The notes below the pieces were generated by a model. The model searched no databases, was not told where the DNA came from, and saw only the letters and a list, made by a program, of their open reading frames with translations. A stretch of 31,511 nucleotides of DNA from a virus. Location of the stretch: the IMG/VR virus record IMGVR_UViG_3300044911_003152, positions 1 through 31,511 of that record; one strand, given 5' to 3'. The position numbers were made by a program, and so were the translations under genes. Every line of letters starts with the position of its first letter. Within the stretch, counting starts at the first letter, position 1. This document shows positions 1 through 22,010 of the stretch, one piece after another.

Positions 1-1223
1 GCGGCGATCTTCACCTTGCGGGTCGTCAGGTCCAGGAACAGGCCGAGGTCCGTGATCGGCACGTAGACCGAGTGGATCTGGGCGATGTCCTGGTCCGGGC
101 CACCCGGCTTGGGCAGGAGCGCGATGGTGTTGCTGGCCATGTAGCGGACCTTGTAGCCGTCCCAGCGCCCGATGGAGAGGGCGCCCGCGCCCTCGGTCGC
201 GCCGTTGGCGGCCGTCGCGCCGACCATGCCGTCACCGGCGGTCGCGCGGCGGTTGATGCCCTGCTGCATGAAGCCCATCGCGTTCAGGTCCTCCATGAGC
301 TGCATGGAGTCCGGGTCGCCCAGCATGACCTCGGTGCCGCGGAAGCCGTCCGCCGACTTGTAGCAGTCGTTGTCCAGGCCGGTGATGGTGCGGAAGATCG
401 TGTTCCGCCACTTGTCCGGGTCCAGCACCTCGTAGATCGTGCCGGCGGGAGCGGTCTTCGGCCAGACGCCGGTCACGCCGGCCGAGGCCACCGTGTCCTC
501 CAGCGCCTGCCCCTCGACCTCGCGGCCCAGCTCCAGGGCCAGGAACTCGCGGCCGCGCTCGGGGAGGCTCATCCCGTACTGCGACGCCAGATCCTGCTGG
601 GCGTTCAGGTGCCACTCGGCGTGGATCGCGTTCTCGACCGCGGTCACGGTCGAGCTGGCCATCTGGAAGTCGGCCGCGCGGGAGGTGTCGCCCTCGCTCG
701 CGATGGCCGTGTAGTCCGGGTCGAGCTTGCTGTTGAACAGGTCGCCCGTGCTGAAGGCGCCACCGTTCTGCGCCGCCTTCTGTTTCCAGGTGTGGACGAA
801 CGCGCGCGGCTGATTCTGGACGCGGACGTCGCAGAAACGGTCGAGCAACGTGCGCTCGTACACCTGCTCCACCACGGCGAGCTGCTGGACGGTGAAGGCG
901 GCCACCGCGGAGCTGGCGGTCGTCTCGCCCATCCGCAGGCGCTTGGCCTCCTCGGCCTTGCCCTTACCGTCCAGGTAAACCGCGGCGGCCTCGCGGAGCG
1001 ACGGATCGTTGACCAGCAGGTCGTGGCCGTGGAAGGACAGGCCGAACGTGCCGGCGGCCTCCAGGGCGGCCATGTGCTTGGCCTGCCGCTCCATGGCGAG
1101 CGCGATGAAGGCACGCTTGCGGGAGGGCAGCGCCTCCGGGATCAGCATGCCGTAGGTCTTCAGAGCGTCGGCGACCGCCTTGAGGTCGCTGCGCCGCGGG
1201 TCGAGGGCCTCTCCAATCATCAT
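1..1223 (-). CDS. Major capsid protein (partial, C-terminus off the window)
   Basis: This is an open frame of 407 complete codons that runs off the left edge. It was read directly on the minus strand and begins MMIGEALDPRR. The start at 1223 has GGAGG at 1232-1236, 8 nt upstream; the second Met at 1220 is possible. Composition is balanced and protein-like, unlike the Arg/Pro-rich shadow frames. It lies 44 nt downstream of the protease/scaffold gene, the classic place for the main shell protein. The N-terminal part is helical and charged, as in capsid proteins with an N-arm; the later part is rich in short beta-prone stretches and Gly/Ala/Thr loops. I infer the HK97 fold from context; no single motif proves it. 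A decoration or other head protein is the main alternative. Confidence 0.75.
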   Translation of the reverse strand, partial: MMIGEALDPRRSDLKAVADALKTYGMLIPEALPSRKRAFIALAMERQAKHMAALEAAGTFGLSFHGHDLLVNDPSLREAAAVYLDGKGKAEEAKRLRMGETTASSAVAAFTVQQLAVVEQVYERTLLDRFCDVRVQNQPRAFVHTWKQKAAQNGGAFSTGDLFNSKLDPDYTAIASEGDTSRAADFQMASSTVTAVENAIHAEWHLNAQQDLASQYGMSLPERGREFLALELGREVEGQALEDTVASAGVTGVWPKTAPAGTIYEVLDPDKWRNTIFRTITGLDNDCYKSADGFRGTEVMLGDPDSMQLMEDLNAMGFMQQGINRRATAGDGMVGATAANGATEGAGALSIGRWDGYKVRYMASNTIALLPKPGGPDQDIAQIHSVYVPITDLGLFLDLTTRKVKIA

Positions 1224-1267
1224 TTCCGTTTCCTCCAGAGTGGAACAGGTGTGTGGGACGGGTCCGC

Positions 1268-1900
1268 TTACTCGCGGCCCAGGCCCGTGCGCAGCTTGTT
1301 GATGGCGACCGCCATCGTGGCGGCCTCCACGGTCAATTCGGGCGCCGGAGCGGCCGGAGCGGGAGCGGCCGAGGGCGGATCGTCGGTGGCCTCGGTGCGG
1401 ACCAGCCCGGTCGCGGCGGCGGCCGTGGCCTTCGCCACTTCGTCGGCGACCTCGGCGAGCGTCTCACCGGCGGCCTTCACGGCCTCCACGGTGGTCGCCT
1501 TGCCCTCCTGGACCCACTTGACCAGCTTCGCCTCCACCGTCTTGCGGTGCGCCGCCGGAGTGGCCTCCACGGCGTCGATGACGGCCTTGGCCATGGCGTC
1601 GGTGTGCTCCGCCTTGGCGAGCTTGTCGTTTGCCTCCTTGGCCTTGGCCTCGGCCGTCTTCAGGGCGGCCGTCGCCTCGGTCAGCGCGTCCTGCGCGGCC
1701 TTCAGCTCGGTCTCCTTGGCCTGGACCTTGGCGGCCTCGGCGGTGCAGGTCGTCTTCACCTGCGCCAGCTCGGTCTCCAGGGCGGTGCAGCGCGCCTGGG
1801 CTTCGGACAGCTTGCCCTCGCCCTCGACGGTGGCCCGCAGCTCGGCCATCAGCTCCGCCACCAGGGCGGCGTGGTTCTTCTTCAGCTCGGCCAGCGTCAT
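1268..1900 (-). CDS. Nested scaffold protein from an in-frame internal start
   Basis: This predicted second product of the protease/scaffold gene has 210 residues. It starts at Met226 of the long protein, exactly where the coiled-coil scaffold begins (MTLAELKKNH). AGGAGG lies at 1906-1911, 5 nt before the ATG, which is much better than anything in front of the full-length start. The arrangement matches lambda C/Nu3, where the scaffold is made alone from inside the protease gene. This would supply excess scaffold over protease. The internal ribosome site and frame are read directly; production of the short form is inferred. Confidence 0.6.
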   Translation of the reverse strand: MTLAELKKNHAALVAELMAELRATVEGEGKLSEAQARCTALETELAQVKTTCTAEAAKVQAKETELKAAQDALTEATAALKTAEAKAKEANDKLAKAEHTDAMAKAVIDAVEATPAAHRKTVEAKLVKWVQEGKATTVEAVKAAGETLAEVADEVAKATAAAATGLVRTEATDDPPSAAPAPAAPAPELTVEAATMAVAINKLRTGLGRE

Positions 1901-2575
1901 CGTCGCCTCCTCGGTCTTGATCATCCCGGCCTCGACCAGTCGCGCATACGCTGCGCTGGCCTCCCGGTGGTTTTCCGTGTTCGGTCGCGCGAACGTGCCC
2001 GCCGAAGGCACGCGCACCGCATCGTAAGTCTCCAGCTTCCAGCCGCGGACCTCGCACACAAACTGGTTTCTGTACGGCTCGTTGGCGTCCCAATACGGGG
2101 ACGCCTCATCGATCAGGTGCTCTTCGATGTAGCCGGTGCCGCGGGAACTGAACCCGATCTGCAACCCGGCCCGGTAGAGGACCAGCATGTCTCGCCCGTG
2201 CGTGGTGTCCAGGAAGGCCACCTTGCCGCGGGCGTGAGCGACCTTGCCGGGGTAGACCACGTCCTCGTCCACGCCGAGTCTGACGAGCGCCAGCGGGACC
2301 TTGAACGTGGGGTTCCAGTCCGGGTGGTCCTCTTCTCCGTCCACAAGGTCGAGGCCGCCCAGGCCGGCCTTGATGCGCTCCGCCAGGGCGGCGTTCTCCG
2401 CCCGGAAGTCGGCGACCGGATATACCCGGTGGTTGCCGTTCACGCGCCCGGCCACGCCGAAGTCGGCGTCGACCACGGCGAGGTACAGTTTGGGGTCGAG
2501 ACCGAAGCTGGCGACGTCCTCATAGACGCGACCGCCAGGGGCCATGACGAATCGTTCTCGCAGGGCGATGCGCAT
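1268..2575 (-). CDS. Prohead maturation protease fused to scaffold (S80-like)
   Basis: This 435-residue protein joins a protease to a scaffold. Residues about 35-190 resemble the T4 gp21-type prohead core protease (peptidase S80). An NGNHRVYP segment (46-53) leads to EEDHPDW with the probable catalytic His84, and then GFSSRGTG with the probable nucleophile Ser143 or Ser144. From about residue 226 the chain becomes a long Lys/Glu/Ala-rich coiled coil with a Pro/Ala-rich linker near the C-terminus, as expected of a scaffold. The start at 2575 is chosen because homology-like sequence begins soon after. It has no clear ribosome site; Met at 2545 is an alternative. The protease would cut scaffold and capsid protein during prohead maturation. 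The capsid gene follows immediately. A nested scaffold start is described separately. Confidence 0.8.
   Translation of the reverse strand: MRIALRERFVMAPGGRVYEDVASFGLDPKLYLAVVDADFGVAGRVNGNHRVYPVADFRAENAALAERIKAGLGGLDLVDGEEDHPDWNPTFKVPLALVRLGVDEDVVYPGKVAHARGKVAFLDTTHGRDMLVLYRAGLQIGFSSRGTGYIEEHLIDEASPYWDANEPYRNQFVCEVRGWKLETYDAVRVPSAGTFARPNTENHREASAAYARLVEAGMIKTEEATMTLAELKKNHAALVAELMAELRATVEGEGKLSEAQARCTALETELAQVKTTCTAEAAKVQAKETELKAAQDALTEATAALKTAEAKAKEANDKLAKAEHTDAMAKAVIDAVEATPAAHRKTVEAKLVKWVQEGKATTVEAVKAAGETLAEVADEVAKATAAAATGLVRTEATDDPPSAAPAPAAPAPELTVEAATMAVAINKLRTGLGRE
1898..1911 (-). promoter_or_regulatory. Strong internal ribosome binding site and start for scaffold
   Basis: On the minus strand AGGAGG (1906-1911), a 5-nt spacer and ATG (1900-1898) lie in frame inside the protease/scaffold gene, at the boundary between the protease and coiled-coil parts. 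Confidence 0.6.
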
Positions 2576-2581
2576 GGTCGA

Positions 2582-2610
2582 GGTGTATCCCAGCGAGGAG
2601 CGGCGTGCAA
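2582..2610 (-). promoter_or_regulatory. Weak candidate promoter for the capsid genes
   Basis: Minus strand TTGCAC (2610-2605), a 17-nt spacer and TACACC (2587-2582). Each hexamer matches only 3 of 6 sigma70 consensus positions. The -10-like element is followed by six bases and then the proposed ATG at 2575, so transcription from here could give a leaderless message. The same spacing (TACAAC, six bases, ATG) occurs in the two stronger cassette promoters further right. Confidence 0.25.
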
Positions 2611-2631
2611 CCCCTGGATTTGCAAGGATTT

Positions 2632-2659
2632 CCACGGCGCGTGGTAGACACCGCCACGC
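2632..2659. other. Overlapping, mutually exclusive hairpins before the capsid operon
   Basis: Three short arms lie in a row on the plus strand: CCACG (2632-2636), CGTGG (2640-2644) and CCACG (2654-2658). The middle arm can pair with either neighbour. It forms a tight 5-bp hairpin with a 3-nt loop, or a 6-bp hairpin (2639-2644 with 2654-2659) with a 9-nt loop. The element lies in the 118-nt gap between the 90-residue gene and the protease/scaffold gene. No T-run follows, so it is not a simple terminator. Confidence 0.3.
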
Positions 2660-2693
2660 CGTAGCGAAATGGCTTGCCGGTCGCGGGGTTACT

Positions 2694-2966
2694 TCACGGC
2701 GCCGGTGCCGCGCGCACCACTGGCCCGGTGCCGTCCGGGCCGAGGTGGAAGTACGGCAGGTCCGCATACGCCTGCCCGTGTCGCTTCACGGTGCGCAGGA
2801 ACGCGGTGACCGCCTGCTGGACCACGGCCTCCGGTCTGCGCGTCCGGTTCGCTCGCCAGACGAGCGAGATCAGGAGGCTCAGGCGTTTGCGCTGATCGGA
2901 GGTGAGGGGGATGGAGTCGATGGAGGCAGGGGAGGGGGGAGGCGTTGCGGTTCGGGTGGCGGCCAT
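2694..2966 (-). CDS. Small protein of unknown function (90 aa)
   Basis: I do not recognise this protein. After a Pro/Ser-rich N-terminus, residues 22-60 read as two amphipathic helices (LTSDQRKRLSLLISLVWRAN, then EAVVQQAVTAFLRTV). This is reminiscent of small helical DNA-binding or accessory proteins. The start ATG at 2966 lies 11 nt after the fibre gene's stop and has no good ribosome site. Translational coupling to the fibre gene would be needed if this start is right. Codon composition resembles the neighbouring real genes and not the shadow frames. A loosely similar segment, LTDEQREVFERAVAHF, occurs in the 115-residue protein at 21117-21464. The family is unknown. Confidence 0.55.
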   Translation of the reverse strand: MAATRTATPPPSPASIDSIPLTSDQRKRLSLLISLVWRANRTRRPEAVVQQAVTAFLRTVKRHGQAYADLPYFHLGPDGTGPVVRAAPAP

Positions 2967-5952: not shown

Positions 5953-8900
5953 TCAGACCTCCTCATCGAACGAAAGCGACCGGACGGCCATCCAGGGCCG
6001 GACCACGGATTGTGGAGAGACCGATGCCCCCGATGGCAGGGCCTCCTGGGAGCATTGGAAGGCGATTTGCCGGACCTCGACACCACCCGGCCGGACCAGC
6101 ATCAGCTCGTAGCCGTTGGCCGCCCCAGCGGGCGCGAAGTCTCTGTCCTGCGACTCGGAAGGGAGCGCGCGTTCACCCTGCCAGACCAGGGCGCATTGCC
6201 GAGCGCCGAAGCGCGCCGCGGCCAGCAGCTCCACGACCTCATTCCAGGTGCTGGGTGTCGTGGGTCGGACCGGGGTTGCGAAGGCCGTGGAGCCCTCGCT
6301 GAAGCGCCGTTGCCCGTAGTCGCAGGAGAAGCTGCGCAGCGCCGGCCGCAGCTCATTGACCACCCGGCCGCCACCCGGAAGCGCGCGGGTCTCGACCCCA
6401 GGGTCCACCTTGAAGCCCCAGCCCCAATCGAAGTCCGGGCCGGAGAGATCAGCGAGGCGCCCGAACAGGAAACGGCGCGTCTCGGCGTAGGGGTTCAGGT
6501 AGGACCGCCAGTGGCCGCGGATCGTCACGCGCAGGTAGCGGCGGCGGTGGGTGAGACCGCTGACGTTGTCGTGCGAGTGGAAGTGGTTGGCGAAGGACAC
6601 GGCGAAGCGGTCGCTGAAGATGCAGGCCCGCTCGGTCTCGCCCGCTCCGCTGCCGGAGACGTTCCAGGTGGGAAAGTAGGTCAGCGGGTTGTCGTCCAGG
6701 TAGAGCCGGTCGTGGTCGTTGTCCACGATCCTGAAGACGCGCGGCGCGGAGAGCGAGGACGCCCCGCGCGCGCCCTCCACCCGGACCGCAAAGTAGAACT
6801 GCGGCCCACCGGGGTTGGGGTCGGAGCGCCACTGGTGCGGGCGCCAGACGTTGGGCGTCACGGTGACGCCGGCGCTCACGTAGACCATCCGGTAGGCGAA
6901 GCGCACCCCGTAACCGCCGTTGACGGCCGGGTCGATGAGCCAGTCGGAGAGGTCGCGGTGCCACTCCTCCAGGCCGGCGCCGCCACCGGGGTACAGGGGC
7001 AGGCCAAAGTCCATGGTCCGCCAGGGTGTGCCGGCCTCGGAATCGGAGCCGTACAGGTCCAGGCGCATGTTCGGCCAGGAGCGCCCGAAGACGGCCAGCG
7101 CGTCGGCGCCCCACCCGTCGGCCCCGGCGTCCAGGACCAGGACGGCCTCCGGGACGTACCCGTAGGTGTCCAGCGCTGGGATGCGCCAGGGCGCTCCGCT
7201 GCCGACCAGAGCATTACGTGCGCCCAGGTCGTAGCCGCTGCGGTAGACGTAGGCGCCGGGGGTCGCAGCGTCGCCTCGCCAGCTCGCGCGCAGCCCGGCC
7301 TCCACCCACTGGCCCGAACCGACGCCGGCGGTGGCCTGCGCCGCCCGCATGAGGTTCACGAAGCCGGAGTCGTTGCGGGAAAGGAACCACATGGGCTCGC
7401 GCTTGTTGATGAGCCAGCTCGGGATCGGCGTGGTCGTCAGCTCATGAGTCCAGTCGCGGGTTCGCACGGCGAGCGGCGGCGTCTGCGCCTCGCGGCCGTC
7501 GAAAAACTGAGTGTCGGGGCGGTGCAGGTGGACGAGCTTCCACCGGCTTGTCCGGGTCAGGGTGGCGTCGCCGGTGACGTGCCCCCAGGAGAGCCGTTCG
7601 TCGGACAGGTCCTTGGACAGGTAGGGAGACAGCGTGCCCTGCCCGACCAGCTTGTATTCGGCCAGGAAGTCCGGGTCCTCGTCTCGGCGCCACACCCGCG
7701 CAAAGCACCAGCCCTTGAACTGCCCGTCCATGTCGAGCGCGTACAGCACCTCAATCCAGTCGCCCACGCGGGCCTGGACCGTCGCGCCCGACCCGATGCC
7801 GTCACCCTTGAAGGTGTCGACGAAGCGCAGGTCCACGGCGCTCGCGCTGGCCCGCTTCAGGCGCACCTCCACCGCGCTGCCGTAAGTGGTCGTCTCCGTA
7901 CCACCGGCGTACCCGTTGGCCACCAGGACCATGCGCGAGCCGATGGCGCAGAAATCAAGGTCTCCGCCCTCGACCACGTCTACCCAGAAGCGCACCACGC
8001 CGGAGAGCTGGGCGTTGCCCGCTTTGCCCTCGGCCTCGCCATCTGCGCCGTTGGGGTTGGGCAGGGTCTCTCGGAAGTAGACCACCGGCCCCGTGAGCTG
8101 CGTTGCGGACTGGTCGTGATCGGCGTCGACCACCTGCATGTCGATCAGGCCGCCAACCTCCTGGTCCTTCTGCCAGCCCCATTGGTCCGGGCTGCCCTGC
8201 GCGTCCCAGCCCATGTGGTAGGCGCGGCCCCACGTCGTCGACTTGGACAGGCTGTTGCTGAAGCCGTTGGTCGTCAGCTTGAAGCCGAGCGCGAGGCACT
8301 CCTGGAGCGGCTGCCAGTTGTTCGCCCGGAACACCACGATGCCAGCTTCCACCAGCGTCGCGGTGCTGCCGGTGCCGCCCTCATGCATGTAGGCGTTGGC
8401 GAGGTAGACCGAGCCCCGGTGCAGGCAGGCCGCGATGCCGCCGGCCCAGCCGGCATAGTGGATCACCACCGAGTTGCCGAGCTGCCCATCCGCGCCGGTC
8501 AGCGTGTGGCCGTGCATCGGGTGGAGCGCCCAGAACGTCGGCGGGTCGCCTCCGCCGTAGTTTGCCGCCAACTGCGAGACGTCGGGGAACAGGTCGGCGG
8601 CGGTATGGTCCATGCGCGGCTCGCGCGTGGCCATCGTCCGCGTGGCCATGAGGTCGCTCCAGACCGAGCCGATGTCGGGCACGTACCACTGGTGCGCCTG
8701 CACGTAGAGCTGAGGCCAGCCGTCGTCGCGAACGACCACGGCGGGGGCGTCGGTGTAGGGGCATGGCGTGGCGTGCCCGATGTCCTGTCGCGTGCCGTAG
8801 TCGGCCCCGTCGGCAGTCAGCCAGCCGTAGATCCCAGAGGCGAACGGGTAGCTGTCGGTGTCGAGCCCCAGGGCCAGCACCACCCAGCACAGCCCGCTGG

Positions 8901-9882
8901 GCAGCATGGTCGAGCTGAGACCGCAGTAGTGCAGGTCCGGGTGGGAGCTGCTGTTGCCCTTCAGCCCGCTGGACACGGTCAGGATCGTCGCGGCCCGGCT
9001 GAAGCTCCGCCCTCGGTCGTCCGACACCAGCGAGTAGACGGCCTTCATCGTCGCCACGACCACCAGCAGGCGCCCAGAGGCAAGGATCTGCGCGGTGCAG
9101 GCCAGGAGCGCGGTGTCGTCGCTTCCCAGGCTGATGTCGGGCGTGGAGCCCATCAGGACGTGCTCCGCCTTGACCTGGAAGCTCTGCGCGTCGCTGTTCG
9201 AGCTGGCGACGTGGAGGCGGCGGTCCCTGAAGAAGCCGGTCGCGAGCTGGGTGTGTGCCGTGCCCACCGTGATCGCGAGCACCTCGCCCGTGTCGGGGTA
9301 CTGGACCAGGGCGAAGTCGAACAGCTCCACCGCCATGTTGTCGCGGCGCCCGTACCAGATGGACAGCTCGGTCGGCGCGCTCCAACTGCCGTTCGGAGAC
9401 ATTGCCGAACGGTAGATGCCGGCCGGCCCGACGCCGGCCCCTCGCCCGGCGTCCTCGGTCTTGCTCACCTGCCGGAGCCAGACGCACAGCAGGTTGCCGG
9501 AGGCGAGTGAGAGCAGCTTGGGGCGAACCAGCCGGTGCGCGCCCAGGCCCGACTCGCGCGCCAGGAGGTCCGGGTGAGTGACCACTTGCGGCGACTGGCG
9601 GAGTTGGAGCGAGCTGTCGTCGGTGCGCGTGAACCCCCAGCGGGCGTCACCCTCCACGCCCGGCTGCACCACGACCAGCCGCCCCTCAACCTCATCCTCC
9701 GGCGTGCCGGTGAGCACAGGCCGCAGGTCGCCAGAGGGCGCACCGTCAGAGTCGGGCTCAACCTGTCGAACGCTCAGGCCAGACTCGACCGGAGCGCCAC
9801 TGGCGTCCGTAGTCGTGACCGAGTGAACCTTGGCGGTCTCGGAGGCGAAGTCCTGGATGAGCAAGAACCGGCGTGGGCGCAT
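5953..9882 (-). CDS. Large tail-tip protein with sialidase-like beta-propeller region
   Basis: This 1309-residue protein follows the tape measure gene by 40 nt, the usual place for the tail-tip or receptor-binding assembly. Residues about 110-470 look like a beta-propeller of the sialidase kind. A textbook Asp box, SDDRGRSFS, lies near 287-295, with a related PNGSWSAPTEL at about 162-172. The region is rich in Trp, Gly and short beta strands. The middle and C-terminal parts are also beta-rich and have no family I can name. The C-terminus contains an HFHSHDN cluster and ends in SLSFDEEV. Whether the propeller binds or cuts a surface sugar is unknown; I cannot identify a full catalytic Arg triad. 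The ATG at 9882 lacks a good ribosome site. Confidence 0.8.
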   Translation of the reverse strand: MRPRRFLLIQDFASETAKVHSVTTTDASGAPVESGLSVRQVEPDSDGAPSGDLRPVLTGTPEDEVEGRLVVVQPGVEGDARWGFTRTDDSSLQLRQSPQVVTHPDLLARESGLGAHRLVRPKLLSLASGNLLCVWLRQVSKTEDAGRGAGVGPAGIYRSAMSPNGSWSAPTELSIWYGRRDNMAVELFDFALVQYPDTGEVLAITVGTAHTQLATGFFRDRRLHVASSNSDAQSFQVKAEHVLMGSTPDISLGSDDTALLACTAQILASGRLLVVVATMKAVYSLVSDDRGRSFSRAATILTVSSGLKGNSSSHPDLHYCGLSSTMLPSGLCWVVLALGLDTDSYPFASGIYGWLTADGADYGTRQDIGHATPCPYTDAPAVVVRDDGWPQLYVQAHQWYVPDIGSVWSDLMATRTMATREPRMDHTAADLFPDVSQLAANYGGGDPPTFWALHPMHGHTLTGADGQLGNSVVIHYAGWAGGIAACLHRGSVYLANAYMHEGGTGSTATLVEAGIVVFRANNWQPLQECLALGFKLTTNGFSNSLSKSTTWGRAYHMGWDAQGSPDQWGWQKDQEVGGLIDMQVVDADHDQSATQLTGPVVYFRETLPNPNGADGEAEGKAGNAQLSGVVRFWVDVVEGGDLDFCAIGSRMVLVANGYAGGTETTTYGSAVEVRLKRASASAVDLRFVDTFKGDGIGSGATVQARVGDWIEVLYALDMDGQFKGWCFARVWRRDEDPDFLAEYKLVGQGTLSPYLSKDLSDERLSWGHVTGDATLTRTSRWKLVHLHRPDTQFFDGREAQTPPLAVRTRDWTHELTTTPIPSWLINKREPMWFLSRNDSGFVNLMRAAQATAGVGSGQWVEAGLRASWRGDAATPGAYVYRSGYDLGARNALVGSGAPWRIPALDTYGYVPEAVLVLDAGADGWGADALAVFGRSWPNMRLDLYGSDSEAGTPWRTMDFGLPLYPGGGAGLEEWHRDLSDWLIDPAVNGGYGVRFAYRMVYVSAGVTVTPNVWRPHQWRSDPNPGGPQFYFAVRVEGARGASSLSAPRVFRIVDNDHDRLYLDDNPLTYFPTWNVSGSGAGETERACIFSDRFAVSFANHFHSHDNVSGLTHRRRYLRVTIRGHWRSYLNPYAETRRFLFGRLADLSGPDFDWGWGFKVDPGVETRALPGGGRVVNELRPALRSFSCDYGQRRFSEGSTAFATPVRPTTPSTWNEVVELLAAARFGARQCALVWQGERALPSESQDRDFAPAGAANGYELMLVRPGGVEVRQIAFQCSQEALPSGASVSPQSVVRPWMAVRSLSFDEEV

Positions 9883-9922: not shown

Positions 9923-12900
9923 TCACCCGCCCCGCATGGCGCGCGCCCCTGGGACCGCCCGGCGGTCGAGCATCCGGGCCACGTCGGAGCCGGGGTTGCC
10001 GCTCTGAATCACGATGCGCCCGATCAGCATCCGCAGGAGCGCGTCAACCCCTCGCCCATCGGGCAGGATCTGAACCGTCGTCGCGCCGCCGGACGCGGCC
10101 GGCGTCCACCCGGCGTTGCGCGCCGCCAGCTCCGCCTCGCCCATGCTGCGCATCGCCCGGTTGTTCAGGATGCCCTCGCCCGCCTTGGCGAGGATCGTGA
10201 CCTCGTCACCGTTCAGGCGGCGACGGATGTCACCCTGGAGGGACTGGACGAGCCCTCCGTCGGCGAAGCGCGGCGCGCCGGCCATGGCGTGGGCCGCGGC
10301 CTGGAGCAGGTTGCCCGGACCGCGCACCACACCGCCGGAGTGGAAGATCTTGCCGCCGGTCGCCTTCCAGGCCGACTTGAGGCCACCGCCGATCTTGGCG
10401 AAGAAACCCTTGGTCCCGCGCCCGGCCGCCGTCACGAACTCCCAGAACGACCGCCCGGCCGCCGTGATCCAGCTCCACAGCGCCTTGCCACCCTCGGCGA
10501 GCGCCCGACCCACCTTGGCCCCGGCCCGGCCGAGGCCAAGGCCGATCTGGGCGAACGCGAGGCCGAGGCCCTTCGCGAGGCCCCAGACGACCAGGGGGAT
10601 GAGCTTCAGCAGCGCCCAGATGATTTGGGGCAGGGCGCGCACAATGGCGACGATGATCTCGGGGAGGTGCTCGATAAGCTTCGCCACGATGAGCCCGACG
10701 CCTTCGATGAGCGCGCTGATGATGTCGGGCAGCGCGTCCACGATGGCCATGATGATCACCGGGATCGCGTCGATGATGGCGATGAGCAGCCCCGGCAGGG
10801 CATCGGCGACCACCTTGAACAGCTCCGGCAGGAGCTTGACGATGCCCTGGATCACCGTCGTCACAATCTCGGGCAGCCGCTGAATCAGGAGCGTCAGCGC
10901 CTGGAGGATGCCTTCGATGATCACCGGGATCGCCTGCACAAGGGCGTCGATGAGCACCGGCAGGGCGTCGATGAGCGCGTTGATCACCGTCTTCAGCAAC
11001 GGACCAATTTTCGGCGCGATGGCCTTCAGGAGGTCGGCGATACCCTTGGCGAGCCCTTCGATGACCTTCGGGAGCGACGCAATGATCGTGTTCAGCACCG
11101 TGACGGCGATCTTGGGCAGCTCCTGAACCACGCGCAGGAGGACCGCGTTGACCTGCTCCACGATGCGACCCAGCACCTTGTCCGGCTGGGCGTCGGCGTT
11201 CTCGCGGCGGAGCTTGTCTTTCTGCGTCTCGCCCTCGGCCTGCGCCTTGGCGGCCTCGCTGAACTGGCCCTTGGCGCGCAGCTCTTCCACGCGCTTGCGG
11301 GTCTCGGCGTCCACGTCGCTCAGGCGCTTGTTCAGGGCCTCTTTCGTGTTATCCGGGTTCGTGAACGCGGAGAAGACCTCCGCCGGCGCGGAGAGGAGCC
11401 GGTCCAGCGGCGCGGTGGCCGCCGACAGCGCCGGCGACAGGAACTTGGCGTTGAACTGCTCGAACAGCTTGGAGGGCAGCTCCAGCAACGGCCCCAGGTA
11501 GCGGCCGAGGTCTTCGCCCAGCAGATCCTTGAGCGGAGCGACGATGGCCTCGTTCAGCCCGGAGACCATCCCGTTCAGCCCGGCCACGAACGTAGCCGCG
11601 CCCGACTCGCCCATGTTCGTGAACGCCTCGGTGAGCGAGCTGCCCAGGTTGGCGCCGACGTCGGCGAGCTTGCCCGGAATCGCCAGCAGGTCGTCACCCG
11701 CTTTGCTCAGGCCGGTCTTAAAGCCGGCGTACATGCCGGCGATCTGGCCGCCAACGGCCTCACCGATGCCCTTGAGGCGGTCGACCAGGGCGTCGCCGAG
11801 GACGGCGCGGGTCGCGGTGCTCATCGCCTCAGAAACGGCGCCAGCGCCCTCCACGAGCTTGTCCTTGACCCAGCCGCCGGCGTCGCTGACGGCCTGCGCC
11901 GCCACCTCGAACGCGCTGGCGACCTTGGCCGAAGTGCCCTCGCCGAAGACGGCGTCCAGGCTGGACGAGACGGCGGCGCCCAGGCGCGTGCTCAACCTTT
12001 CCGCCCCGTAGGACAGCGACTCCAACAGCAGCGACCCCAGGCTTTCGGCGGCGTCCTGCGCGCCCTCGGTGAGCGCGTCCCACAGGCTGCCGATCAGCCC
12101 CCTGAGCGAGCCTTCAACCTCCGGCGGAACCTCGGTCGCCCCCCAGACGTTGAACCGCTTGGCGAGCCCGGCGATGCCCTCGGCGATCTGGATTGAGACG
12201 GCGACCTCGGCGGCCTTGCGCTTGTCGCGCAGCTTGGCCTGGACGTCCTCCAGATCCCTGGCCGCCTGCGTCTGGATGCGAGTGACCTCGGCGGCGGTGG
12301 CCTTTTCCTTGGCCTGGACAAGACGCGATACCTCCTCCTCCTGGTCCAGGCGCGCGGCCGGCGACAGCAGCTTGGCGCGCTCCGCGGCGGCGGCGCGGAT
12401 CTCTTTCAGCTCCGCCTCCAGCGACGTCGTGGCGGCGGCGGCCCGTTTGTCGGCGAGCTGCTGGACCATGAGCGCCTGCGTCTCCAGCAGGTCAATCACC
12501 TTCTTGAGCGCGGCCTGTTCAGCGATGGCCACCTGCCCGTCGGTGGCGCCGGCCTCCTGCATCGCCTCGCGCTGTGCGGCGGCGGCGGCCTCGATGGACG
12601 TGACGGCGCGCTCCTGTTCCTGGAGCATGGCGTCCAGGAACGCCACGCCGGCCTCGGAGCCGAGCTGTTCGGCCTGTTCGCGCAGGCGAGCGAGACCGTC
12701 AAGGGCCTGGGCCACCGCCTGTTCGTGCTCTTTGCGGACGCGCTCCGCCTCGCGCGCGGCGTCTTTGGACTGCCGCTTGCGCTCGCGCTCCGCATCCTTG
12801 GCCGCCTTCACCTTGGCCTTCAGATCTTCGTCTCGCGCCCCGATCTGTGCGGCCGCCTCGCTCTCACCCTCGGCAATGTTTTTCGCGAGCCCGGCGGCCT

Positions 12901-15181
12901 CCTCGCGGGACTGGATGAGCGACCGCTGAACCTCGCGAGACCGCGCCTCCAGCTTGCCCAGCTCCTCCTCGGCGGCGGCCATCGACTTGACGTGCGGGTT
13001 GACCCCGCCGGCCAGGGCGCGGCCGAAACCCTCCAGCGTGGTGTTGGCGTCCTGGCGGTACTTTTCCGCGGCGGCCCTGGCGCCCTCCGCCTCGGCGCGC
13101 AGGGCCTCCATCCGCGCGTCCAGGGTCGCCTTCTCATTCTCCAGGTCCCCGATGCGCGCCCCGATGCGCGCGGACGCCTCAGCCGCGGCGGCCTGCGCCT
13201 CCTCCGGGGCAGCGTGGAACGCTTCTTTGACGTCCTTCAGGTCTTCTTTGTTGAAGCCCAGGCGGGTCTCACCCGCGGCGTTCTTGGTGCTGTTCGGAGA
13301 GCCCTTGAGCAGGACGGCCGCACCGCTCCGCAGGCGGTCCAGCGCCGCCTTCATCTCCTCCACGTCCTTGAAGCCGGCGGCGAGCGCGGTGTCCAGGCTG
13401 GCGTTGGACATGGCCTCGGTGGACTTGCGAATGGCCTCCTGCGCGGCGTCGCCGAACTCGCTGTCCCGGCTGGCGAGGCCCTTGCCCAGCCAGTCGCCGA
13501 ATGCCTGCCCCAGCTCCATGCCGACCGCGGCGATCATGGCGAGCACGTTGGGGTTCTTCAGTGCTTCCTTCAGCGACTTCAGCAGGCCCGCACCGGAGAG
13601 CTTCACGCCGGTCGAGAGCCCTCGTCCGTAGCTCAAGCCGTAGTCCTGGCCAAAGCGCGCGGCGGTGGCGCCGACGCTGGAGGTGACCTTGCCGAGCGTC
13701 GCCAGCTTGTCGCGCAGCGCGTCCAGGCCGGACATGGCCGCTCGGCCGATCTTCACCGCGGCAAGCCCGGACAGCAGGAACAGGATGGTTTTGCCGTGCT
13801 CGGCCGCAAACTGGCCCAGGCGGGCGACAGCGGCCGCCAAGCTGCCGAGGCTATCCACGAGGCCGCCGGAGGCGAGCGCGCTCGACAGCGCGTTCATGGT
13901 GGCCGTGAGCGCGGGCAGCATGCGGTCGCCGATCTGGATCAGCGCGGCGGTCACCCGGTTCTTCAGCACCTTCCACTGTTCGTTGAAGGTCGCGTTCACC
14001 TTGGCCGCGGCGCGGTCCACCGCGCCCGTGCTGTTCTTCACCGCGTCCAGGTTCTGGTGCAGGCTGTCGAAGCCCTGCGAGGTGAGCGACAGGACGCCTT
14101 TCAGGCCATCGACGTCGGTAAAAAGCTGGGTGATCTCGGAAGCGGAGCCCTGCGTCTTCGCGATCACGTCCTCCAGGACGCCGGTGAGCTGCTTTCCCTT
14201 CAGGGCGGTGACCCCGTATTCGATGCCCAGGGCCTTGAACCGCTCGCCCACCTCTTTCGGCGGCCGGGCCAGGGACACCATAATCTGCCGGACCGAGGTC
14301 AGGGCCTCCGACGTGGAGAGGCCGCCCAGGGTGAGCTGGGCCATGACCGCCAGCACCTCGTCCAGCGAGACGCCGAACGCGGAGCTGATGCCGACGATCT
14401 GGCCAAGGCTGCTCGCCAGCTCGGGCATCGTCGTGACGCCCTTGTCGACGGTCACCCGGAGCTTGTCCGTCACCTGCGCGGCGGTGAGGCCCGATTTCTT
14501 GTAGGCGTTCAGGACGGCGTTGACCGCGCGGACCACGTCCGCGGTCTCCGCTCCGCCCGACGCGGCGGCCTTCTGCGACGCCTCCAGGACCGCGAACGCG
14601 CCAGCCGCGCCCTCCACCGCAGGGATGCCGGAGGAGAGCGTGTCGTACAGGCCCTTGGTCAGGTCCAGCAGGTCGCGAGAGCTGCGCCCGGACAGCTCCA
14701 GGAGCTGTTCCCGGTAGCGACTGACCGAAACGCCCGACCCGTCCAGCAGCGTGTTGACGTCGGCAAGCGACCGCTCGAAACCGGACGCGGCCTCGGCGGC
14801 CTTGGCGAGCCCGGCCGCCCCGAAGACGGCGGCGAGTTGCCCCTTGAAGTCGGCGAGCGGACCGAGCATCCGGTTGAACGCGCCGGAGGTGCGTTTCTCC
14901 AGGCCCTCCATCGCGGCAGCGCCCTTGGCGCCGGCGGTGGCCGCGGCGGACTCCAGCGACGACAGCGCCTGCGTTCCGGCAGCGACGGTCCCCTTGAGCT
15001 TGCCCAACGCGCGGGCGGTGCGGCCCTCGAATCCCTCCATGGAGCCGGCCGCTTTGCCGGACACCCTGGCCGTCGCGGTCTCCAGCTCGGCAATGACCCG
15101 GGTGGCCTGTTTGATGCCGGCGCGCAGCTTGGAGTCAACGACCTCCAGCAGGAGTGCGATGCGATGCGAGGTGTCGGACAT
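9923..15181 (-). CDS. Tape measure protein (1752 aa)
   Basis: This is the longest gene in the window and the ruler of the tail. The start at 15181 is chosen because GGAGG lies 4 nt upstream, in preference to the longer frame at 15217. Residues about 135-420 match the conserved phage minor-tail/tape-measure region (FERSLADVNTLLDG, DKGVTTMPELASSLGQIVG, LTLGGLSTSEALTSVRQIM). Long coiled coils follow at about 665-1000. Residues about 1350-1540 form a run of hydrophobic helices with a mostly 11-residue period (LPGLLIAIIDA, IPVIIMAIVDA). The C-terminus has the usual FHSGGVV, ADGGLV and AKAGEGILNN motifs. At roughly 0.15 nm per residue, the size suggests a tail near 260 nm; this is an estimate. The chaperone genes that normally precede it in the same direction are here divergent. 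Confidence 0.95.
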   Translation of the reverse strand: MSDTSHRIALLLEVVDSKLRAGIKQATRVIAELETATARVSGKAAGSMEGFEGRTARALGKLKGTVAAGTQALSSLESAAATAGAKGAAAMEGLEKRTSGAFNRMLGPLADFKGQLAAVFGAAGLAKAAEAASGFERSLADVNTLLDGSGVSVSRYREQLLELSGRSSRDLLDLTKGLYDTLSSGIPAVEGAAGAFAVLEASQKAAASGGAETADVVRAVNAVLNAYKKSGLTAAQVTDKLRVTVDKGVTTMPELASSLGQIVGISSAFGVSLDEVLAVMAQLTLGGLSTSEALTSVRQIMVSLARPPKEVGERFKALGIEYGVTALKGKQLTGVLEDVIAKTQGSASEITQLFTDVDGLKGVLSLTSQGFDSLHQNLDAVKNSTGAVDRAAAKVNATFNEQWKVLKNRVTAALIQIGDRMLPALTATMNALSSALASGGLVDSLGSLAAAVARLGQFAAEHGKTILFLLSGLAAVKIGRAAMSGLDALRDKLATLGKVTSSVGATAARFGQDYGLSYGRGLSTGVKLSGAGLLKSLKEALKNPNVLAMIAAVGMELGQAFGDWLGKGLASRDSEFGDAAQEAIRKSTEAMSNASLDTALAAGFKDVEEMKAALDRLRSGAAVLLKGSPNSTKNAAGETRLGFNKEDLKDVKEAFHAAPEEAQAAAAEASARIGARIGDLENEKATLDARMEALRAEAEGARAAAEKYRQDANTTLEGFGRALAGGVNPHVKSMAAAEEELGKLEARSREVQRSLIQSREEAAGLAKNIAEGESEAAAQIGARDEDLKAKVKAAKDAERERKRQSKDAAREAERVRKEHEQAVAQALDGLARLREQAEQLGSEAGVAFLDAMLQEQERAVTSIEAAAAAQREAMQEAGATDGQVAIAEQAALKKVIDLLETQALMVQQLADKRAAAATTSLEAELKEIRAAAAERAKLLSPAARLDQEEEVSRLVQAKEKATAAEVTRIQTQAARDLEDVQAKLRDKRKAAEVAVSIQIAEGIAGLAKRFNVWGATEVPPEVEGSLRGLIGSLWDALTEGAQDAAESLGSLLLESLSYGAERLSTRLGAAVSSSLDAVFGEGTSAKVASAFEVAAQAVSDAGGWVKDKLVEGAGAVSEAMSTATRAVLGDALVDRLKGIGEAVGGQIAGMYAGFKTGLSKAGDDLLAIPGKLADVGANLGSSLTEAFTNMGESGAATFVAGLNGMVSGLNEAIVAPLKDLLGEDLGRYLGPLLELPSKLFEQFNAKFLSPALSAATAPLDRLLSAPAEVFSAFTNPDNTKEALNKRLSDVDAETRKRVEELRAKGQFSEAAKAQAEGETQKDKLRRENADAQPDKVLGRIVEQVNAVLLRVVQELPKIAVTVLNTIIASLPKVIEGLAKGIADLLKAIAPKIGPLLKTVINALIDALPVLIDALVQAIPVIIEGILQALTLLIQRLPEIVTTVIQGIVKLLPELFKVVADALPGLLIAIIDAIPVIIMAIVDALPDIISALIEGVGLIVAKLIEHLPEIIVAIVRALPQIIWALLKLIPLVVWGLAKGLGLAFAQIGLGLGRAGAKVGRALAEGGKALWSWITAAGRSFWEFVTAAGRGTKGFFAKIGGGLKSAWKATGGKIFHSGGVVRGPGNLLQAAAHAMAGAPRFADGGLVQSLQGDIRRRLNGDEVTILAKAGEGILNNRAMRSMGEAELAARNAGWTPAASGGATTVQILPDGRGVDALLRMLIGRIVIQSGNPGSDVARMLDRRAVPGARAMRGG
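10570..11130 (-). repeat. Hydrophobic 11-residue repeats in the tape measure
   Basis: This part of the tape measure gene encodes tandem amphipathic/hydrophobic helices with a mostly 11-residue period and a Leu-Pro or Ile-Pro start (LPDIISALIEG, LPVLIDALVQA). A few units are longer. Similar runs in other tape measure proteins are linked to tail packing or membrane insertion on DNA entry. Confidence 0.6.
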
Positions 15182-15231
15182 TGGGCCTCCCCTGGAGTTC
15201 AGGGCGAAACCTACCACGCGCCCCGTGGGAC

Positions 15232-15261
15232 TTCACCCAGCGGGCGCCGGCGTGTTATGAA
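15232..15261 (+). promoter_or_regulatory. Candidate promoter for the plus-strand chaperone genes
   Basis: TTCACC (15232-15237), an 18-nt spacer and TATGAA (15256-15261), each matching 4 of 6 sigma70 consensus positions. It lies in the 105-nt divergent gap between the tape measure start and the first chaperone gene, about 25 nt before its ATG. Because the chaperone genes are inverted they need a promoter of their own here. Confidence 0.4.
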
Positions 15262-15286
15262 CACCTCCCACCCCACGGGAGAGACC

Positions 15287-15886
15287 ATGACGACCAACCC
15301 GACCATCGCCCCCAACGACCCGTTTGCCGCCCTGCGAGACCTCACCGAGCAAGTGCCCGTCGGCGGCGACGTCCTCACGGTGCGCACCGCGCGCCTGTCT
15401 CAGGACGAAACCGCGCTGCGCCTCATCGGACAGCTCGACATTGCCGGCCTCGGTGTCGTCCTGGCCGAGGCCCTGGGCACCGCCGGCGGCCTCGACGCCA
15501 CGGGCGGTGACCGCAGCGTGCTCACGAAGATGCTCCCCCTGGTGCCGGCGCTCCTGCCCAAGCTCTGGGAACAGGCGCGCACCGTGCTCGGACAGCAGCT
15601 CATCCCGTGCATCCGCGGGATCGCCATCGTCATGCTGGACACCCGCGAGAATGCGCGCGTGCTCGCCAAGGCCGGCGTGTTGCCCGCGGCCGAGGCCGAG
15701 GTCTCCGGCGCGTGGAAGGGCTCCCAGGCGGTGCAGGACCACCTGCTGGAGAACCTCTCCACGCCGCAGGCCGCGCGCGTCGTGGCCGCGGCCTTCCGCG
15801 TCTCCAACTGGCGTGAGATCGTGGGAAACCTGACGCCCCTGGCGACGGCCAAGGCGCCGGGGGCGATGAGCGAGGCGAAGAACTAG
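15287..15886 (+). CDS. Tail assembly chaperone, G-like (199 aa)
   Basis: This is the first of two plus-strand genes and sits exactly between the tail tube and tape measure genes, where siphophages carry the tail assembly chaperones (lambda G and G-T). The ATG at 15287 has GGGAG about 5 nt upstream; the in-frame ATG at 15257 has none. The protein is mostly helical, with an N-terminal region typical of a cytoplasmic assembly factor (RTARLSQDETALRLIGQL, about 29-46). Near its end a -1 frameshift signal leads into the next gene. It would bind the tape measure and recruit tube subunits, and is probably absent from the virion. The assignment rests on position plus the frameshift rather than on sequence family. 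The orientation, opposite to the tape measure, is very unusual. Confidence 0.8.
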   Translation: MTTNPTIAPNDPFAALRDLTEQVPVGGDVLTVRTARLSQDETALRLIGQLDIAGLGVVLAEALGTAGGLDATGGDRSVLTKMLPLVPALLPKLWEQARTVLGQQLIPCIRGIAIVMLDTRENARVLAKAGVLPAAEAEVSGAWKGSQAVQDHLLENLSTPQAARVVAAAFRVSNWREIVGNLTPLATAKAPGAMSEAKN

Positions 15887-16422
15887 CCGACGCGCTACCC
15901 GGCCCGGCCACTCTGGTCGCCATCATGGCGCAGCGGTCGGGCATGAGTGCCGAGGACTACTTCTTCACCCGGACCAGGGCGCAGTTTCTGCTGGACGTGT
16001 CGGCGTGGCAGGCGTCGTTCACGACGCCCACAGTGTTGCTCGCCCGCGCCTTCGGACTGTCCAGCGACGAAGGCCCCCAGCAGCCCCGTCAACGCGAGGT
16101 GGCGGAGAGTGCCGCTCCTGCGGTCGGGCAGGACACCGCGCCGCCTCCACGGCGCCCTGGAGGCAACCGGACGGCCCCTCCACGATGGTATCGTCAGGTC
16201 AACGGCCGCCACTACGACGTCCACGACATGGACACGAGAGACCCCACGCGCTTTGCCGCTCGCGCCGCAGCCCTGCGCGGCGTCTGGTCTCAAGTGTCGA
16301 AGTGGTCGGCAGGGAAGTGGGGGACGGGACAGACGTTCGGCGTGGCAGACGAGCCGGTGGCGCGGACCACCCTCGTCCAGGCACTGACGAGGGTGAAGGC
16401 CCGCGCGGAAGCCGGCGCTTAG
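15287..16422 (+). CDS. Frameshifted tail assembly chaperone fusion, G-T-like (378 aa)
   Basis: This is the predicted -1 frameshift product. The ribosome reads 181 codons of the first gene, slips one base back on GGGAAAC (15823-15829), and continues in the frame of the second gene to 16422. The new frame is open from the slip site through the stop of the first gene and into the second, which I checked codon by codon. After the slip the protein reads PDAPGDGQGAGGDERGEELA and so on, and then joins MAQRSGMSAEDYF. This is the same logic as lambda gpG-T, in which the T part binds tail tube subunits. How often the slip occurs cannot be told from sequence; a few percent is usual for such signals. Confidence 0.75.
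15823..15865 (+). other. -1 programmed ribosomal frameshift signal
   Basis: The heptamer G GGA AAC (15823-15829) is in the correct frame of the first chaperone gene (X XXY YYZ) and differs from lambda's G GGA AAG only in the last base. After a 4-nt spacer comes an 11-bp stem, 15834-15844 with 15855-15865, interrupted by one G-U pair and closed by a 10-nt loop. Slippery site, spacer and GC-rich stem are all as in known -1 signals. Confidence 0.85.
15925..16422 (+). CDS. Second chaperone frame, T-like part (expressed by frameshift)
   Basis: This is the downstream frame of the chaperone pair, 165 codons from an ATG at 15925 that has no ribosome site. The frame is already open well upstream and joined to the first gene by the -1 signal, so it is probably made only as the fusion and the ATG is not needed. 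It contains a helical segment, EDYFFTRTRAQFLLDVSAWQ (about 10-29), a low-complexity Pro/Gln/Arg linker (about 50-85), and a C-terminal basic region with RQVNGRHYDVHDMDTRDPTR. Its stop TAG overlaps the stop of the convergent tube gene (shared bases TTAG, 16419-16422). Independent translation cannot be excluded. Confidence 0.65.
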   Translation: MAQRSGMSAEDYFFTRTRAQFLLDVSAWQASFTTPTVLLARAFGLSSDEGPQQPRQREVAESAAPAVGQDTAPPPRRPGGNRTAPPRWYRQVNGRHYDVHDMDTRDPTRFAARAAALRGVWSQVSKWSAGKWGTGQTFGVADEPVARTTLVQALTRVKARAEAGA

Positions 16423-17003
16423 GGCGTCTCGGTGAAGACCGGCGAGACGTTCGGGTTCGGGCAGTACAGCTTGCCCAGCGGGCTGTCGGCGCTGCCACCG
16501 AAGCCCTCGTTCGTGTCGTCCAGCGCGTTGAACTCGGCGTTGGTGCCGACGACGCTCGCGTCACCGCCGATGGACATGGCGCCCGACCCGGTGGTCTTCC
16601 AGATCGTCGCCTCCATCACGAAGCCGTCGCACCGCTCGCGCCGCGCCACGAGGTTGCCGAAGACGTCATCGAACGCGCAGGCCGCGCCGGGGTTGACGTA
16701 CTGCGAGACGTCGGCGATGTCCTCCCCCATCAGGAGGTGCATGTTCGCCTTGTGCAGCTCGTCCAGCCGCCCGCTGAACTTCATGCCCATGCGGGTGGGC
16801 GAGAGCAGCTCGACACGGCGCGGGAACGTGGTGCCCAGGTACTCGGTGTCCTCCCGGCTCATCTCCAGGACGGCGTCCTGCATCACGCCCAGGTAGTACA
16901 GGGCCTCGTCCTCGGTGCCGGGCGCCTTGACGAAGTGGACGTGACTCCAAAAGCCCTGGAAGAGATTGGCCGAGGAGTGGGTGGACTGAAGACCAATCGG
17001 CAT
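16419..17003 (-). CDS. Major tail tube protein (194 aa)
   Basis: This is probably the subunit that stacks into the tail tube. Evidence is mainly position: after the tail terminator and before the chaperone/tape-measure block, with about the usual length for tube proteins. AGGAGG lies 5 nt before the ATG, a strong site fitting a highly made protein. The sequence is beta-rich with Gly/Ser/Thr loops (VELLSPTRMGMKFSGRLDEL about 64-83; KTTGSGAMSIGGDASVVGTN about 136-155) and a flexible, Asn/Pro-rich C-terminus. The 3' end meets the chaperone gene tail to tail, with overlapping stop codons and no terminator. Confidence 0.7.
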   Translation of the reverse strand: MPIGLQSTHSSANLFQGFWSHVHFVKAPGTEDEALYYLGVMQDAVLEMSREDTEYLGTTFPRRVELLSPTRMGMKFSGRLDELHKANMHLLMGEDIADVSQYVNPGAACAFDDVFGNLVARRERCDGFVMEATIWKTTGSGAMSIGGDASVVGTNAEFNALDDTNEGFGGSADSPLGKLYCPNPNVSPVFTETP

Positions 17004-17015
17004 GGAAGCCTCCTG

Positions 17016-17612
17016 CTACGGGATGAAGCCAACGGCGCCCAGCGCGTCCTGTGGGAGCCGGATCGTGAACGTCAACGTAACGCGCTGCAAACCGTCGGTC
17101 ATGTGGTGTCTACGGCGCTCCTCCGGCGCTCCGAAGGTCCCCCTGGAGCGCGACTGGACCATCAGCTTCTGCCCGGTGGCCTGCGGCGAGTCCACGTCGG
17201 CGAAGTCGAGCACGTCCACCGCCCAGCCGGGCAGGCCGGCGCGCCGCTCGGTGAACCGGGCCTGAACGGCGGTCGCGAGGTGCTCGCACCGCACGCCCAG
17301 CGGGTCTTTGTCGCCGGCGTCGGCGGTCGGATCGCCCACCCGGCTGAAGACGTCCACTTGCGCAGACGACCAGCCGCCGGCCCCGGCCAGCTCCTCCAGC
17401 CAGCGCACCTCGACCCACGCCTGGGCCTCGCGCGCGCCATCGGCCTCGCTCTGCCATTCGTCGCCGGCCCCGGCCCCGCCCTCGGCCAGATCGGGATCGG
17501 CCAGGGCGTAGTCGTGGATCACCGGAAACGTGCCCTCCGGGCAGGTCACGGTGGAGCCGAGCCAGACCTGGAACGACCGCTTCAGATCGGAGTGGTCTCG
17601 GTGCTCGCTCAC
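17016..17612 (-). CDS. Tail terminator-like protein (198 aa)
   Basis: The start is GTG at 17612, overlapping the stop of the neck gene as GTGA, with GGAG 7 nt upstream. The longer minus-strand reading from 17960 runs inside the neck gene and is a shadow. Order (adaptor, stopper, gp10-like, this gene, tube) matches the slot of gpU/gp17-type tail terminators, which cap the tube and join it to the neck. The family's usual size is 130-200 residues. The mixed alpha/beta sequence has a C-terminal beta strand pair (QRVTLTFTIRLPQDALG, about 176-192) typical of such proteins, and a Gly/Ala/Glu-rich loop at about 41-60. Role is inferred from order; sequence similarity is weak by eye. Confidence 0.6.
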   Translation of the reverse strand: MSEHRDHSDLKRSFQVWLGSTVTCPEGTFPVIHDYALADPDLAEGGAGAGDEWQSEADGAREAQAWVEVRWLEELAGAGGWSSAQVDVFSRVGDPTADAGDKDPLGVRCEHLATAVQARFTERRAGLPGWAVDVLDFADVDSPQATGQKLMVQSRSRGTFGAPEERRRHHMTDGLQRVTLTFTIRLPQDALGAVGFIP

Positions 17613-18127
17613 GACGCCGCTCCAGCCGTCGCGCCCACCGCGCGGGCCACGACCGCGCCGATGTTCTGCGCCTCGGCGACGGCGAGCCCGTGGGCGGCCC
17701 GCATCATGCCGTAGGGCTTGGTCCCAGGGTGCGCGACCGAGGCCACCGTGACGAAACGGCCCACCGCCGGCCAGAAGAACGCCAGGACGCCGCCGGGCTT
17801 GGCCCGGATCATGTGGGGGCGCGTGCCGTACTCCAGCATCTCGCCCAGGTTCGTGATGCGCCCGTCGGACAGCTCGACCGAGGCGTTGAAGCGCGGGTCG
17901 GTGTTCTCGACCACGAAGCCCCGCGCCCCGTCCTCGCCCTTGAACGACCGCACCACCCACGCCTTGTGCGCGTGTTTCCCAGGCGTCTTCAAGGCGGCCC
18001 GGTTGGCGGCGGCCTCCGCGATGCGCCCCAGCTCGCGCTCCACGGCCTCCACAAGCCGGCTGGAGGTCTCGGTCAGCCGCTCGGACGTCAAGGTAAGGGG
18101 CGGCTCGAACCGCAGGCTCATGGTCAC
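17609..18127 (-). CDS. HK97 gp10-like neck/tail protein (172 aa)
   Basis: The start is GTG at 18127 with GGAGG 7 nt upstream; an ATG two codons in is possible. The central and C-terminal part carries the marks of the HK97 gp10/SPP1 gp16.1-like family: EYGTRPHMIRAKPGGVLAFF (about 98-117), then a conserved VAHPGTKP (about 131-138), which in relatives reads '..V.HPG.kp..'. The N-terminal 40 residues are helical. Members sit between stopper and tail terminator and help join head and tail. It lies 2 nt after the stopper gene and overlaps the next start, consistent with a coupled connector operon. Confidence 0.8.
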   Translation of the reverse strand: MTMSLRFEPPLTLTSERLTETSSRLVEAVERELGRIAEAAANRAALKTPGKHAHKAWVVRSFKGEDGARGFVVENTDPRFNASVELSDGRITNLGEMLEYGTRPHMIRAKPGGVLAFFWPAVGRFVTVASVAHPGTKPYGMMRAAHGLAVAEAQNIGAVVARAVGATAGAAS

Positions 18128-18730: not shown

Positions 18731-19423
18731 TCACGGCTCGCCTCGGATCGGGGCGAGCGGTCCCAGGCCGTCGATGAACCGCTGATACGCCTCGCCGGCG
18801 GCCGCCTTGTGGTGCTCCGGCGCGCGCGTCGTGGTCGAGACGCCGGAGGCGCCCGACACGTTGGAGATCGCGCCCCGGCCCACGGCCAGGAGCGAGTGGC
18901 AGCGGAACTCGGCGTAGTTCTGGAACGCCGTCTCGCGCTCATCATCCACGTCGGCCACCGTGGCGAAGCGGTTGCCGAAGTAGGTGAAGTAGACGGCGAC
19001 CACGCCCTGCGGGATCGGGTCCAGGTAGACCAGCGGCCCCTGGATGGTCGCCCGCCCCGCGAAGAACCGCGCCTGGAACTCGCGCAGCCGGGCGGCGGCC
19101 AGCTCGAAAAACGGCCGCTGGACCGTGAGGTTGCCCGCCTCATCGCGCGTGACCTCCGGCCCCAGGTCGATTGCGTGGCCCTCGGAGTCGTAGAAGACGT
19201 CCACGATGGAGCGCGCGCCCTCCACGCCCACCAGGGGGCTGTAGACCTGGGTGCCGGCCACCGTGTTGAAGCTCGCCACGCCCACCGCGGGGAAGTGTCG
19301 GTTCACCTCGCGCAACGCCTCGGTCAGGCACTGGTCCACGATGGCGTCGGACAGCAGCGTCGTGTCGGTGGCGTGGCCCACCGCGGCCCGAAGGCGCGCG
19401 CGGAACTCGGCGAGGGTAGGCAT
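18731..19423 (-). CDS. Head-tail adaptor-like protein (230 aa)
   Basis: The protein begins MPTLAEFRARLRAAVGHATD, then a helix with DAIVDQCLTEALREVNRHFP (about 27-46). This helical opening with conserved acidic and aromatic residues is like gp6/gp15-type adaptors that bind under the portal. A beta middle (GTQVYSPLVGVEGARSIVDV, about 58-77) is followed by a C-terminal helical part (AFQNYAEFRCHSLLAVGRGA). It starts 1 nt after the 227-residue gene's stop. Connector order to the left supports the role. The length is longer than a minimal adaptor (100-150 aa), so an added domain is possible. Confidence 0.65.
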   Translation of the reverse strand: MPTLAEFRARLRAAVGHATDTTLLSDAIVDQCLTEALREVNRHFPAVGVASFNTVAGTQVYSPLVGVEGARSIVDVFYDSEGHAIDLGPEVTRDEAGNLTVQRPFFELAAARLREFQARFFAGRATIQGPLVYLDPIPQGVVAVYFTYFGNRFATVADVDDERETAFQNYAEFRCHSLLAVGRGAISNVSGASGVSTTTRAPEHHKAAAGEAYQRFIDGLGPLAPIRGEP

Positions 19424-21467: not shown

Positions 21468-22010
21468 TCAGCTTTCGACCACGGCCTCCAGGCCGCGGCC
21501 GACTGCCCAGGGCGCATCGACCGGATGGTGGCGGCGGCTGCGCAGGCAGCCGTTCAGGGCGGCCTTGGTCGCCTTGACCTCGGCGCGGTAGTGGGCCAGG
21601 AGGATGGCGCAGCGGGGGCGGTCGGTGGGGCGGACGACGTCCAGGAGCTGCATGAGGTTCTTGACGTGGTTCTGGTAGACCCGCAGCCGGTCCTCCAGGT
21701 CGTCGCCAGGGCGGCCGTCGACCACGCGCACCAGGGCGGCGTACCGGCCCGGCGTGCCACCGAAGACCTCGGCGGGCAGCGCGTCCGCCTGAGCCGGGTG
21801 ACCGCTGAACCGCTGGAACACCACGCGGTCCCCAACGGACAGCTCCGCCGGCGCGTCTTTCCCCTTGGCCAGGACCACCGCGTAAATGGCATCGAACCGG
21901 GCCTTGTGCAGCGCGGGCAGCCACAGGCCGCTTGAATCCTGCACCTCGCCTTCACCTTGGAAGTCGGGCTCCACGGCCACCCAGGGACCGAGCGGTTTGG
22001 CGACGGCCAT
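21468..22010 (-). CDS. GroES-like co-chaperonin with C-terminal extension (180 aa)
   Basis: Residues 1-75 follow the Cpn10 plan. KPLGPWVAVEPD (5-16) matches the first strand, QDSSGLWLP (24-32) matches the end of the mobile loop (GGIVLP in GroES), AVVLAKGK (44-51) matches the VVAVGKG strand, and LSVGDRVVFQRFSGHP (57-72) matches VGDRVLFGKYSG. The hydrophobic Leu-Trp-Leu would be the GroEL-binding tripeptide. Residues about 76-180 are an extra domain not found in GroES. T4 gp31 and its relatives are phage co-chaperonins that let GroEL fold the large capsid protein; the same role is inferred here. It overlaps the small basic gene by 4 nt. A fold-only similarity is the main alternative. Confidence 0.65.
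   Translation of the reverse strand: MAVAKPLGPWVAVEPDFQGEGEVQDSSGLWLPALHKARFDAIYAVVLAKGKDAPAELSVGDRVVFQRFSGHPAQADALPAEVFGGTPGRYAALVRVVDGRPGDDLEDRLRVYQNHVKNLMQLLDVVRPTDRPRCAILLAHYRAEVKATKAALNGCLRSRRHHPVDAPWAVGRGLEAVVES

Follow-up and report, generated by a model that had tools for sequence, protein, structure and literature searches.

The window analysed here, 31,511 bases long, is an entire IMG/VR virus record of metagenomic origin; no end repeats were detected in it, and it is probably a fragment. Between its tape measure gene and a presumed tail tube gene lies a module of two overlapping reading frames, ORF1 and ORF2, carried on the plus strand. The features of this region are the following.

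9923-15181, minus strand: tape measure gene, with PHROG and Pfam PhageMin_Tail matches
15182-15286, between the strands: divergent intergenic region, 105 bp separating the start of the putative chaperone gene from that of the tape measure gene
15287-15886, plus strand: ORF1, the putative zero-frame product of the chaperone (G-like), 199 aa; ATG start, GGGAGAG at 15277-15283, codon statistics
15823-15829, plus strand: -1 slippery heptamer G_GGA_AAC in the ORF1 frame, a heptamer also present in relatives' chaperones
15834-15865, plus strand: predicted hairpin, separated from the heptamer by a 4-nt spacer, -25.8 kcal/mol
15829-16422, plus strand: ORF2, the putative -1 frame extension (T-like), 197 codons, with a predicted fusion product of 378 aa; in-frame ATG at 15925
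16419-16422, both strands: TTAG, the overlapping stops of convergent genes (TAA of the presumed tube gene on the minus strand, TAG of ORF2 on the plus strand)
16419-17003, minus strand: presumed tail tube gene, 194 aa, assigned by order and size only
17016-17612, minus strand: gene between the neck/completion and presumed tube genes
17609-18127, minus strand: neck/completion protein, weak PHROG match
18731-19423, minus strand: SU10-type adaptor

The plus-strand module and its neighbours

The GC content of ORF1 at the three codon positions (0.725, 0.49 and 0.93) resembles that of the minus-strand genes. When positions 15287-15829 are scored with the record's own codon table, ORF1 reaches +74.7, and the other five frames range from -174 to +3. 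On the basis of codon-position GC and codon score, therefore, we conclude that ORF1 is a native coding sequence on the plus strand. The codon signal of ORF2 is weaker than that of ORF1; its frame scores best of all frames in 15925-16080 (+11.6) and in 16181-16419 (+3.8), and the linker at 16081-16180 is uninformative. According to a gene finder based on codon usage, ORF1 is the sole plus-strand gene, the remaining predicted genes of the 31.5-kb record all being on the minus strand. The placement of the module on the opposite strand, as given in a preliminary description of this DNA, is thus borne out.

That description also set the module in the slot that separates tube from tape measure. On the tape measure side, where the family matches confirm the neighbour, this position is established; on the other side the neighbour is presumed, from order and size, to be a tube gene, with the neck, adaptor and portal genes upstream of the module in canonical order. 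The presumed tube protein has no family match, its profile-profile scores against the tubes of relatives are not above those of controls, and its predicted structure (pLDDT 30, from a single sequence) is too poor for a fold search. The divergent start region that had been described at 15182-15286 is present and now lies upstream of both the module and the tape measure gene, whose own ribosome site, AGGGGAGG on the minus strand, is intact at 15186-15193.

Three further observations concern the genes around this region. The head genes depart from the canonical siphophage order: a Gp23-like major capsid gene, truncated by the end of the record, and a prohead protease gene (2-2767, minus strand) follow the tail fibre gene on its downstream side and do not adjoin the portal gene. 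A possible GroES-like (Cpn10) gene stands among the structural genes (21468-22010, minus strand), just below the Pfam cut-off and with a weak PHROG match. The tape measure gene is followed immediately downstream by a gene for a 1309-aa protein (5953-9882, minus strand), which has neither a family match nor a relative in IMG/VR.

A frameshift signal near the end of ORF1

The -1 frame is open from a TGA at 15814 to 16422, and GGGAAAC, the only XXXYYYZ heptamer in the tail of ORF1, follows closely 3' of that TGA, about 20 codons ahead of the ORF1 stop. The free energy of the hairpin is in the lowest 0.2% among all 40-nt windows of the record, and the fold of the 61-nt region has z = -3.25. In-frame XXXYYYZ sites number 6 in the approximately 9,400 codons of the record, and hence the chance of finding one in the 23 eligible codons is roughly 1.5%, an estimate from which the hairpin is left out. 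A scan of both strands for a long first frame with a stop close by and a lengthy -1 extension returned the site at 15823 and one weak match (-9.4 kcal/mol) as the complete signals in the record, and no other frameshift pair able to serve as a chaperone. Read from the sequence, then, the heptamer, spacer and hairpin are a canonical -1 frameshift signal, predicted to join ORF1 to the second frame. The two overlapping frames and the frameshift signal reported earlier both hold.

In phage lambda, the chaperone products coat the tape measure, recruit tube subunits and then leave; the first two of these steps are described in PMC5009743. Like the lambda genes for G and GT, whose shift site is G_GGA_AAG, the module adjoins the tape measure gene and consists of two frames that overlap, with a predicted -1 shift late in the first of them; its heptamer, open -1 frame and hairpin would join the frames in the manner of the G/GT chaperones. 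Its heptamer differs from that of lambda in one base. The module is unlike G/GT in its long -1 extension of 197 codons, in having no detected sequence similarity, and in lying on the strand opposite to the tail operon, the same strand being a usual but not strictly defining property of such chaperones. A heptamer identical to that of the module, G_GGA_AAC, has been reported as the g-t shift site of the haloarchaeal virus HCTV-1 (PMC5009743), which belongs to a different virus group and whose likeness to the module lies in the heptamer.

The orfA/orfB plan of an IS3-type insertion sequence, had one entered between two tail genes, would likewise combine a -1 heptamer and hairpin with frames that overlap, all on the opposite strand. 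We regard this as very improbable: the module has no match to a transposase (DDE) or any other domain, it has no copies in phages or plasmids, its codon usage is native, and inverted repeats at its borders are not significant, scoring no better than 47% of random pairs. Neither an insertion sequence nor a defence gene found support in the domain and family searches.

Identity of the module

Searches of PHROGs, Pfam and NCBIfam gave no match for ORF1 or for the ORF2 frame. The Pfam test has low power, since those chaperones of relatives that were tested lack Pfam matches as well. Profile-profile comparison of the module with the chaperones of relatives gave scores not above controls, an Rfam search gave sub-threshold matches only, and the predicted structure of ORF1 (pLDDT 45, from a single sequence) is too poor for a fold search. 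For ORF1, ORF2, and the tube, capsid, portal, adaptor and 1309-aa proteins, no relatives were found, each having been searched for in at least one of phages, plasmids, IMG/VR and GTDB genomes.

One resemblance did emerge. The 25 residues preceding the slip, ENLSTPQAARVVAAAFRVSNWREIVGN, resemble those at the same place, EHLTLAQATEILVAFLELNQLPVIRGN, in a locus with a related tape measure (L012, IMGVR_UViG_3300010284_000005); the comparison has z = 4.0 and is the best among about 60. The L012 gene matches phrog_1442, 'tail assembly chaperone', and it too carries GGGAAAC. It is unlike the module in being co-oriented with its tube and tape measure genes, and there is no full-length similarity between the two. 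We treat this likeness, seen at the sequence level, as a lead and not as proof.

The absence of a chaperone family match would also be expected of an unrelated pair of plus-strand genes, a moron or regulatory pair that entered the slot between tube and tape measure, with the real chaperone absent or, the record probably being a fragment, located outside it. Genes that run against the direction of a phage structural operon are indeed often accessory, the small leftward genes of cluster O mycobacteriophages being an example (PMC4351075). Yet a -1 frameshift signal with a hairpin at the expected place is not normal for accessory genes, the module has native codon usage and no accessory-domain or defence match, and the record offers no alternative chaperone candidate. 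We consider an unrelated pair improbable.

A tail assembly chaperone is therefore our best reading of the module, based on its frameshift architecture, its slot and a weak likeness, in the residues before the slip, to a chaperone that PHROGs recognise. The chaperone identity proposed in the preliminary description is retained in this sense, the profile searches of both frames neither confirming nor contradicting the family.

Orientation of the module

To our knowledge, the slot of the tail chaperone and its co-orientation with the tail genes are treated as near-universal, and are used for annotation. A search with the tape measure domain yielded 80 IMG/VR loci with distantly related tape measures, of which 73 have enough sequence upstream of the tape measure gene to be surveyed; seven annotated phages were also read for comparison. 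A co-oriented frameshift pair occupies the slot, on the strand of the tape measure gene, in 47 of the 73 loci, and GGGAAAC is the heptamer in about 15 of the tape-measure-related loci. As no pair was recognised under the survey criteria in the other loci, the survey demonstrates a rule of co-orientation and not a rate of inversion.

An opposite-strand pair was scored in a single locus of the 73 (L054), where it lies antisense to the gene for the tape measure, and we therefore attribute it to chance. The tape measure gene of that locus (L054:7300-9665) has no recognisable tube or chaperone gene upstream and is preceded by small genes on both strands, which suggests that it has been displaced. 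Minus-strand genes flagged upstream of the tape measure gene in L017 and L071 proved, when the reading frames were read, to be antisense shadows of co-oriented plus-strand tube or chaperone genes; a simple gene finder flagged such genes in L066 also, in the same pattern as in L071. Comparison of gene order thus recovered co-oriented chaperones among the relatives, often with GGGAAAC, and the inverted layout in none, whether among the tape-measure-related loci or in the searches for protein relatives. Nor did the open-access literature, in the parts covered by our search, yield an inverted chaperone.

With a layout this unusual, known from a single metagenomic sequence, a genuine chaperone may have been inverted by an error of metagenome assembly, through a flipped segment or the mixing of two populations. 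The lack of any relative with this layout, and the prevalence of co-oriented pairs in the survey, speak for such an error. However, the borders carry no significant inverted repeat that would cause a flip, the ends of the module are gene-precise, with both ribosome sites intact and the stop codons overlapping, and the module shares its codon usage with the remainder of the record. Given ends this clean and codon usage that is native, we judge an assembly artefact unlikely as the source of the inversion.

We infer instead, with reasonable though not high confidence, that the module is a frameshifted tail assembly chaperone of the lambda G/GT type, inverted in an ancestor and served by its own promoter. 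A unit comprising the upstream gap and both frames would have been turned round in the interval that separates the tube gene from the tape measure gene. The majority of ribosomes would make the 199-aa ORF1 product, and a minority, assisted by the hairpin, would slip by -1 at GGGAAAC to make the 378-aa fusion. If lambda is a guide, both proteins would coat the tape measure, recruit tube subunits and then leave.

Since the module lies on the opposite strand, it should be transcribed separately, from a promoter of its own, convergent with the tube gene and divergent from the tape measure gene. The preliminary description held that the inversion removes the chaperone from the tail transcript and makes its level independent of the tape measure. 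The first part agrees with the strand; the second, independent control, does not follow from it, and the late minus-strand transcript may equally read through the chaperone gene as antisense. No consensus promoter or terminator was seen. The observation made in that description is thus confirmed, and its interpretation partly supported.

It is possible, and we suggest it only tentatively, that this lineage has split transcription of the chaperone from that of the tail operon, with a separate promoter, an antisense late transcript, and a level and timing set apart from those of the tape measure. If the arrangement is real, co-transcription of the chaperone with the tape measure gene would be dispensable, and the virus would be a naturally occurring system in which to ask whether it is the ratio of G to GT, or that of chaperone to tape measure, that matters. 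Annotators would also be warned to check both strands for chaperones.
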